Origin: a virus
IMG/VR virus record: IMGVR_UViG_3300050132_000154
Location: 1 to 34,059 of that record
Reading direction: 5' to 3' (one strand)
Length of the DNA: 34,059 nucleotides
The notes under the pieces are model-generated. The model worked only from the letters and a program-made list of their open reading frames with translations, was not told where the DNA came from and searched no databases. Position numbers and translations under genes: made by a program. Shown here piece by piece: positions 8,213-20,370 of the stretch. The stretch's first letter is position 1; the number at the start of each line of letters is the position of its first letter.

Positions 8213-8241
8213 AAAGAGAATAACTCTAAGCTACTCTCTTT
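8213..8241 (-). terminator. Terminator of the tRNA-tmRNA unit
   Basis: On the minus strand AAAGAGAGTA pairs with TATTCTCTTT (10 bp, one G-U) around GCTTAGAGT and runs into a long T-rich tract (TTTTTTTT then TTATTT). It defines the 3' end of the noncoding transcript. One arm overlaps the helix that closes the tag reading frame (8228-8235), so the two folds exclude each other. Confidence 0.75.
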
Positions 8242-8249
8242 AATCGAAG

Positions 8250-8294
8250 TTAAGCTGCTGCTTTTACCTCTGGATTTAATTGATAAACGTTGCC
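8250..8294 (-). other. tmRNA tag reading frame
   Basis: Codons from the GGC resume codon read GNVYQLNPEVKAAA followed by TAA. Upstream TAACC-GGC resembles the TAGTC-GCA/GGC context before the resume codon of known tmRNAs. The small nonpolar AAA end fits a ClpXP-type degradation signal. A helix AAGCTACT (8313-8306) / AGTAGCTT (8235-8228) closes the region. The exact resume codon is inferred. Confidence 0.7.
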
Positions 8295-8357
8295 GGTTAG
8301 GCGATAGTAGCTTCTTTATGTTTCCCTTTCCAATGCAATCGAAAGCCTTACAGCCCC

Positions 8358-8425
8358 TAGTATTAATATTGTGAGCAAGCGATCATTAATCATTCTTGCT
8401 CTATCCACAGCCAATATGGACTAAG
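8358..8425 (-). other. Intervening segment of the permuted tmRNA
   Basis: These 68 bases lie between the 3' acceptor half and G1 of the 5' half, and would be excised. They fold on themselves: GAGCAAG/CTTGCTC (7 bp) inside ATATTG/CAATAT (6 bp). No start codon or protein frame is evident. Confidence 0.65.
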
Positions 8426-8502
8426 TGGAGCTGCTCCCATCGAAGGGAGGTCTTACACTAAAACCAGAAATCTCACTACCATTATTTTAAAGAACTTATT
8501 TG

Positions 8503-15852: not shown

Positions 15853-15926
15853 CTTGCAGCGATGAAAATATTATTATTTACAAACCTTATCCGAGTACCG
15901 TCTGCAAGCGGGAAAGGGTGAGGTTT
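15853..15926 (+). ncRNA. Pseudoknot-order leader RNA, copy 1 (before HNH-AP2)
   Basis: S1 CTTGCAG (15853-15859) pairs with CTGCAAG (15902-15908). S2 AAACCTTATCC (15882-15892) pairs with GGGTGAGGTTT (15916-15926, two G-U). The order S1-S2-S1'-S2' makes a pseudoknot or mutually exclusive folds. TTTTTT follows S2', so S2 could be a terminator. A short frame starts ATGAAAATA at 15862 right after S1 and stops with TGA inside S2'. The layout repeats at 26171-26276 with different helix sequences. Confidence 0.65.
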
Positions 15927-15941
15927 TTTAATTTAAACAAA

Positions 15942-16427
15942 ATGAAAGAAATTAAATTAGGCAAAAGCGGTTGTGTTGCTATTATCGACGATGAAGATTA
16001 TGAATTAGTTATGTGTTTTAAGTGGCATTGTAAACATGACAAAAATACAAAATATGCTTATAGAAAAGAATCAAAATCAAAAAATATAAAAAAAATATAC
16101 CTTCATTCGTTTGTTATGGATTCAAATACTGAATTAGATCATAAAGATAGAAACGGATTAAACTGCCAAAAATCAAATTTAAGAACCTGCACCCATCAAG
16201 AAAATAGCAGAAACAGATCATCTTTTAAAAACAGTTCGAGCAAATATAAAGGAGTATCTTACTATAAAATCAGAAATAAATATGTTGCAAATATATGGGT
16301 AGATAATAAATCAATATTTTTAGGGATATATAAATGTGAACTTGATGCAGCCTTAGCTTATGATTTAGCCGCTTATAAATACTTTGGTGATTTTGCTTTT
16401 TTTAATTTTTACCCAAATAGCCACTAA
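15942..16427 (+). CDS. HNH homing-type endonuclease with AP2 DNA-binding domain
   Basis: The ATG at 15942 is preferred to a GTG at 15918, which lies inside helix S2'. The protein is 161 aa. It starts MKEIKLGKSGCVAIIDDEDY, followed by FKWHCKHDK. The HNH core near residues 65-95 includes LDHKDRNGLNCQKSNLRTC, and SSKYKGVSYYKIRNKYVAN plus FLGIYKCELDAALAYDLA near 105-145 is the AP2 domain, three strands and a helix that bind DNA. Such free-standing endonucleases cut one strand or both at a specific site and spread by repair. It opens the rightward segment behind promoter and leader RNA. No intron is evident around it. Confidence 0.88.
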   Translation: MKEIKLGKSGCVAIIDDEDYELVMCFKWHCKHDKNTKYAYRKESKSKNIKKIYLHSFVMDSNTELDHKDRNGLNCQKSNLRTCTHQENSRNRSSFKNSSSKYKGVSYYKIRNKYVANIWVDNKSIFLGIYKCELDAALAYDLAAYKYFGDFAFFNFYPNSH

Positions 16428-19740: not shown

Positions 19741-20370
19741 ATGTTAAAAATTCAAATTAAATCAATTTACGGATCAATTCTTTTTGAACACAGTTCAGAA
19801 AACAACACAATTAAAGAAACGGTTGAAAAGGCTATTAATGAAAGTGCAGACCTGAGTGGTGTAGACCTGAGCGGTGCAAACCTGAGCGGTGCCGACCTCA
19901 GAAGTGCCAACCTCAGAAGTGCCAACCTCGAAAGTGCCAACCTCGAAAGTGCCAACCTCTACGGTGCCGACCTCAGAAGTGCAGACCTGATACGTGCCAA
20001 CCTCTACGGTGCCAACCTCAGAAGTGCCGACCTCAGAAGTGCCAACCTCGAAAGTGCCAACCTCTACGGTGCCAACCTCAGAAGTGCCAACCTCAGAAGT
20101 GCCAACCTCAGAAGTGCCAACCTCAGAAGTGCCAACCTCAGAAGTGCCTTAAATAAAGAATTAGCATATTTACCAACATACTGCAAATGGTCGCATTGTA
20201 TAATTGGAGACAAAATAAAAATCGGGTGCAAAGAAAAATCAATTGAGGACTGGGACGCTTTTTTTGCTTCAGATGAAACTTATTCAACCGAACGAGGAAC
20301 AGAGGATTTTAAACAAATCCAAGCGGTGTACGAAAGCTATAAAGCATATATGAACTTTTTAAATAAATAA
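19741..20370 (+). CDS. Pentapeptide-repeat protein (209 aa)
   Basis: Residues ~33-137 are about 21 pentapeptides of the form A(D/N)Lxx (SGADLRSANLRSANLESANL and so on), building a right-handed quadrilateral beta-helix. The N-terminal 32 residues are non-repeat, and a C-terminal domain of about 70 aa (YLPTYCKWSHC to the end) contains three Cys and Trp. Some members, such as Qnr and MfpA, mimic DNA and protect gyrase; others have unknown roles. In a phage, protection or inhibition of host gyrase is possible but unproven. The 15-base repeat units are nearly identical, so copy number can change by recombination. Confidence 0.9.
   Translation: MLKIQIKSIYGSILFEHSSENNTIKETVEKAINESADLSGVDLSGANLSGADLRSANLRSANLESANLESANLYGADLRSADLIRANLYGANLRSADLRSANLESANLYGANLRSANLRSANLRSANLRSANLRSALNKELAYLPTYCKWSHCIIGDKIKIGCKEKSIEDWDAFFASDETYSTERGTEDFKQIQAVYESYKAYMNFLNK

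Follow-up and report, generated by a model that had tools for sequence, protein, structure and literature searches.

A circularly permuted tmRNA gene from a Bacteroidota phage and its relatives in other phages of the phylum

Anatomy and setting of the locus

The window analyzed here, a virus contig of 34,059 bases, carries a circularly permuted tmRNA gene on its minus strand, at 8480-8213. Along that strand the order is P2 strand, GAC, T-arm, CAGCTCC-A, spacer, GGGGCTG, TTTCGA, P2 return strand, TAACC, tag and terminator. An initial annotation had proposed just this arrangement, with the 3' half upstream of the 5' half, and each part it named was found in its assigned place. Coordinates below run 5' to 3' on the minus strand, unless they belong to other genes.

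In the 3' half, the 5' strand of P2, TTTTAGTGTAA (UUUUAGUGUAA; 8463-8453), is followed by GAC (8452-8450) and by the T-arm (8449-8434), whose stem CTCCC/GGGAG (8449-8445/8438-8434) encloses a loop of six nucleotides, TTCGAT (8444-8439). The acceptor 3' strand CAGCTCC (8433-8427) and the discriminator A (8426) complete this half, after which CCA is not encoded. The spacer comprises 68 nt (8425-8358; 17-248 nt in relatives) and folds on itself, as the annotation had claimed, with a computed energy of -18.2 kcal/mol. The 5' piece starts with the acceptor 5' strand GGGGCTG (8357-8351), which pairs with 8433-8427 at 7/7 positions, and continues through the conserved D-loop motif TTTCGA (8344-8339; TTT[CT]GA in relatives) to the P2 return strand, TTGCATTGGAA (UUGCAUUGGAA; 8338-8328), which can form 11 consecutive pairs with 8463-8453. 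TAACC (8299-8295) directly precedes the site at which translation would resume, GGC at 8294. The codons from there begin GGCAA, giving a motif, TAACNGGCAA, that is common to the relatives and to a one-piece Bacteroidota tmRNA (L192). The tag frame (8294-8253) reads GGC AAC GTT TAT CAA TTA AAT CCA GAG GTA AAA GCA GCA GCT TAA, encoding GNVYQLNPEVKAAA with its stop at 8252-8250, and a computed intrinsic terminator, a 13-bp stem and then a T-run, occupies 8241-8213. A tag frame and terminator after the 5' half had likewise been predicted.

All 23 pairs in the window are standard (seven in P1, 11 in P2 and five in the T-stem), in agreement with the stem lengths first proposed, and the 7-bp acceptor has the G3-U70 pair and A73 of alanine identity. 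P2 contains one G-C pair only, and the 11-pair helix does not appear in the predicted minimum-energy fold of the window; P2 here rests on comparative evidence. Folding prefers a hairpin within 8480-8450, GGUUUUA-GUG-UAAGACC, which uses the same strand as P2 and competes with it. Outside P2, GGUAGU.GA.UUUCU is predicted to be able to pair with AGAAGCUACU. The T-loop has six nucleotides rather than the usual seven of TTCRANN. The same loop length occurs in two other permuted tmRNAs (L334 and L171), and hence it is a variant rather than grounds for exclusion; L334 retains an intact acceptor and T-stem.

Directly upstream, and presumably on the same transcript, is a tRNA-Met gene (CAT; 8577-8504) called by both ARAGORN and Rfam. 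A match to the consensus of the Bacteroidota-type -7 promoter motif, TATATTTG (8595-8588), precedes the tRNA and the tmRNA. TAnnTTTG, the promoter motif of Bacteroidota, is enriched in the window (80 occurrences versus 55.6 +/- 7.2 expected). The tRNA-Met shows ~80-83% identity to tRNA-Met of phages that infect Vibrio and Roseobacter, and may be phage-spread rather than host-derived. At about 8497-8484 the window has AAGTTCTTTAAAAT. Two related viral contigs (L248 and L296) both have ATACGTTCTTTGATTTCGTT upstream of the tmRNA 3' half, a sequence that resembles the boxA-like GTTCTTTGA in the rRNA leaders of Bacteroidota.

The genes around the element encode a terminase, an SPP1-type portal, a head morphogenesis protein and a major capsid protein. 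Searching viral contigs with the portal or head protein by itself gave no match, and alignments of relatives were needed. Both proteins match phages of Riemerella, Porphyromonas, Bacteroides and Cellulophaga; for the portal, the best prophage match is one of Dyadobacter bucti (55%), and each of the 16 prophage loci from the portal search belongs to Bacteroidota. By these protein matches, the virus is a phage of Bacteroidota. The nearest portal relatives (53-56%) do not carry this RNA, so the gene is accessory in this virus; the searches turned up no close relative that shares the tmRNA. Elsewhere in the window, 19741-20370 encodes a protein of 209 aa in which pentapeptide-like repeats (SANLR/SADL) form long runs, and 15918-16427, between the terminase small subunit and the early genes, encodes an HNH and AP2 protein that is probably a homing endonuclease.

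Detection and the search for relatives

As the initial annotation had suggested, we ran permuted-tmRNA models and ARAGORN on the locus. The models did match, below threshold. RF04321 (tmRNA_permuted) gave 29.4 bits against a gathering cut-off of 47 (E=5.0e-6 for the 34-kb record). None of RF01849, RF01850 and RF01851 matched over cut-off; the best, RF01851 (cyano_tmRNA), gave 24.7 bits against 70 (E=9.5e-7, same record). ARAGORN, which reports permuted genes elsewhere, called only the upstream tRNA-Met. A scan for a 5/5 T-arm, a 7/7 acceptor and TTCGA matched once in the window and in 0 of 1000 dinucleotide-shuffled windows. Divergent permuted tmRNAs can thus escape both ARAGORN and the Rfam cut-off.

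Relatives were gathered in three ways, by sequence pattern, by genome survey and by similarity. Because the spacer varies from 17 to 248 nt, we used pattern searches instead of a clade-specific covariance model. When 395 Bacteroidota genomes were surveyed with RF04321, one match exceeded the cut-off (L194), and ten sub-threshold matches proved on inspection to be one-piece tmRNAs. This bears out the earlier statement that Bacteroidota genomes carry the one-piece form, since the single exception lies in a prophage, among phage polymerase, helicase, RIIA-like and integrase genes. The L194 gene is permuted, has the tag GKVIQMNNAPVRLAA and adjoins a tRNA-Met, as the window element does; its host genome also has a one-piece tmRNA with the tag GEDNYALAA.

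No match came from a strict DNA pattern modelled on the window tmRNA. A looser one led to two beta-type phage genes and L171, all permuted and all outside this clade; the L171 gene (800-1043) scores 91.5 bits with RF04321, combines a T-loop of six nucleotides (TTCGAT) with a tag that ends in APEVRLAA, and is missed by ARAGORN. The motif TAAC-N-GGCAA-N-GTT found L248 and L296. In 38 of the 40 viral stretches hit by the final 5'-half pattern, a T-arm (5/5) and an acceptor (7/7) lie upstream; the other two (L313 and L317) lack these and were set aside, as was a match in G127, judged by eye not to be tmRNA. Removal of duplicates left 30 distinct members, with the window and L194 counted.

DNA similarity, confined to the acceptor/T-arm region (34-61 nt), led to seven further genes annotated as ssrA: six in crAss-like phages (Crassvirales, Suoliviridae: cr50_1, cr10_1, cr60_1, cr114_1, cr125_1 and cr130_1) and one in Chryseobacterium phage MA9V-3. 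ARAGORN types all seven as permuted, and RF04321 gives them 40-65 bits. The family therefore includes 36 distinct members besides the window, 29 from the survey and motif searches and seven annotated genes. Most relatives tested score 50-73 bits with RF04321, and the other Bacteroidota-phage members overall 40-73. Ten other named Bacteroidota phages gave no RF04321 match at E<=0.01. The best protein matches of three of the metagenomic contigs are to Bacteroidota phages. The expectation that homologues exist was thus borne out in other Bacteroidota phages, though not in the nearest portal relatives.

In cr114_1, a complete tRNA-His gene (L345:1543-1615) sits inside the spacer between the tmRNA halves; a tRNA-Ala within a spacer has been mentioned (PMC11915505). 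The contig of member L332 also encodes two adjacent proteins (L346:71-1824) that look, by eye, JAB/MPN peptidase-like and E1/ThiF-like.

Covariation, tags and the short 5' arm

The acceptor, T-arm and G3-U70 are common to the members, and most also have TAACNGGCAA and a short 5' arm. We assessed covariation in an alignment of 24 members; in this and the further tests below, related sequences count several times. T-stem pairing holds in 98% of cells, and all five pairs change on both sides; P1 is 100% paired. Pair 5 of P1 occurs as C-G, G-C, U-A and A-U across members that include the seven named phages. The whole-structure covariation score was 0.355, compared to 0.093 for shuffled sequences and a maximum of 0.142 when partners were slid. 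P2 is 67% paired in alignment A4, because two register types are mixed there; with each sequence in its own register, matched strands form a mean of 6.9 bp versus 4.2 for mismatched strands, a difference reached in 0 of 5000 permutations. Compensatory changes, which the annotation had named as a check for P1 and P2, are therefore seen in P1, P2 and the T-stem. G3-U70, the pair that marks alanine identity, occurs in 37/37 members.

A tag unlike that of the host, predicted for the window, turned out to be a family trait. Family tags begin GK or GN, and 30 of the 31 distinct tags end in Ala, with wide variation in the last three residues (the frame of L333 extends past the end of the stretch examined). 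Besides GNVYQLNPEVKAAA in the window, examples are GKVIQMNNAPVRLAA, GKTINFSNAPLRAVA, GKTIEMKMAA and GNNFEMKAAA; crAss-like tags are of the ...DYT..A type, GNFYVTDYTRIAA, and that of MA9V-3 is GNVIDINKYVAKLEVAA. Phage tags end in AAA, VAA, AVA, MAA, TAA and the like, whereas in hosts the tag ends are NYALAA, YAMAA and similar sequences.

The distance from GGGGNTG to TAAC is 44-53 nt in the 30 pattern-found members, compared to 82-86 nt in the one-piece Bacteroidota genes measured and 75 nt in a beta-type phage gene (L170). With 30-58 nt permitted after TTTNGA, the pattern admits arms of up to about 75 nt and excludes the one-piece length. From the short 5' arm we infer that the first pseudoknot was lost in the family. 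Constancy of TAACNGGCAA is partly built in, as the motif belonged to the search pattern for most members; free of that bias, it is carried by L194, whose discovery did not depend on the motif, and by three crAss-like genes that similarity led to.

Function, origin and relation to known tmRNAs

Taken together, the anatomy, model matches and relatives support the original proposal of a phage-encoded, circularly permuted tmRNA in a Bacteroidota phage. We put the probability at roughly three in four that the element is a working two-piece tmRNA of a Bacteroidota-phage clade, one that would add a phage-specific tag and use the host's SmpB, AlaRS and EF-Tu. By analogy with established tmRNA biology, the RNA would be transcribed together with the upstream tRNA-Met from the putative TAnnTTTG promoter. 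Cleavage by RNase P and processing at the 3' end would remove the 68-nt spacer, CCA would be added, and P1 and P2 would hold the two pieces together. Once charged with alanine by host AlaRS, it would be delivered by host SmpB and EF-Tu to ribosomes stalled on broken mRNA, where translation would resume at GGC, append a phage-specific tag ending in Ala, and terminate at UAA. During infection this would supply extra rescue capacity, and unfinished proteins would receive a tag without the host NYALAA end. Host SmpB would be used because no SmpB was found over cut-off in the 31 phage records, many of which are fragments; a 17.6-bit match in the L332 record was rejected as partial and below cut-off.

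One alternative is that the window copy is drifting away from a permuted tmRNA that worked in an ancestor. Its RF04321 score of 29.4 bits is the lowest among members scored, its T-loop is shortened and its P2 is weak. However, the 7/7 P1, the 5/5 T-stem, the 11 pairs of P2, the resume motif and a full, Ala-ending tag frame are all intact, and L334 combines the same loop with an undamaged acceptor and T-stem. We consider such decay unlikely. Still less probable is a role as inhibitor or decoy, in which the tRNA-like part would bind host SmpB and shut down host trans-translation. Such a shutdown has been reported for a tag-less tmRNA-like RNA of mycobacteriophage DS6A, a precedent cited in PMC4131195 and PMC11915505, and the lack of SmpB over cut-off in the phage records implies that the RNA must share the host protein. 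Yet a pure decoy needs no tag, and an open frame with terminal Ala persists in 30/31 distinct tags despite their divergence. The DS6A RNA also has a tmRNA-type tRNA-like domain; it differs in having no tag frame, which the window possesses.

Capture of a host tmRNA fragment by imprecise prophage excision is a very remote prospect: tmRNA genes are common integration sites (PMC11915505), but the permuted order already contradicts this origin given the one-piece genes of surveyed Bacteroidota hosts, the tag and 5' arm length are unlike those of hosts, and the element has its own terminator within a structural-gene region. Equally negligible is a chance arrangement of tRNA-like motifs, which would suit a score under the Rfam cut-off but is contradicted by the family itself, with similar tags, resume motif and spacing in independent phages, and by the absence of matches in 1000 shuffled windows.

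The element shares several features with the two-piece tmRNAs of Alphaproteobacteria, Betaproteobacteria and Cyanobacteria (RF01849, RF01850 and RF01851; merged as RF04321): permuted order, G3-U70, T-arm, TTTCGA, P2, spacer and tag frame. These known types have the resume context UAAAUGCAAACGA, whereas the phage clade has TAACNGGCAA, an acceptor-to-resume distance of 44-53 nt (against 75 nt in the beta-type L170) and tags starting GK or GN. Marine-phage two-piece tmRNAs, such as that of methylophage Melnitz, are also phage-borne and permuted; the Melnitz type is alphaproteobacterial in origin, and marine-phage tmRNAs have been assigned to the three known lineages (PMC9004378). The crAss-like and MA9V-3 ssrA genes share the permutation, the stems and a Bacteroidota-phage setting with the window, and those of cr60, cr114 and cr125 share the resume motif TAACTGGCAA. 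One-piece Bacteroidota tmRNA (RF00023) shares GGTTTTGACAGC and TAACTGGCAA (L192) and, in part of the phylum, G-starting tags; it differs in being unpermuted, in its arm of 82-86 nt and in tag ends like NYALAA or YAMAA. Because GGTTTTGACAGC and TAACTGGCAA match the one-piece Bacteroidales tmRNA L192, and not UAAAUGCAAACGA, sequence comparison suggests that the clade arose when a Bacteroidota-type gene was permuted, or that it converged on the host machinery.

Two-piece tmRNAs in phages are already known. In one survey, 53 of 133 unique phage tmRNAs were two-piece, mostly aquatic (PMC9004378), and a tmRNA database counts 79 sequences from bacteriophages and recognizes three main permuted clades (PMC11915505). 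Our literature search found no description of a permuted clade in Bacteroidota phages or crAss-like phages; the tmRNA database (PMC11915505) may list individual members. As a group, the Bacteroidota-phage clade looks undescribed. We give about even odds to the broader reading that these compact phage tmRNAs, apparently without the first pseudoknot, are a fourth, independently arisen permuted lineage. On this reading they would descend from the one-piece tmRNA of Bacteroidota, would have spread among unrelated phages of the phylum, crAss-like ones among them, and would replace the host tag in infection.

Three bacterial lineages, together with their phages, are known to have two-piece tmRNA. 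A diverse clade in Bacteroidota phages would show that the permutation can also persist in viruses of hosts that, where surveyed, have the one-piece form, and that it does so with altered tags and a 5' arm of reduced length. As phage and host tag ends differ, the fate of tagged proteins under ClpXP may differ too, and the question of why phages re-tag becomes testable, with the abundant gut phages among the Crassvirales members as a test ground.
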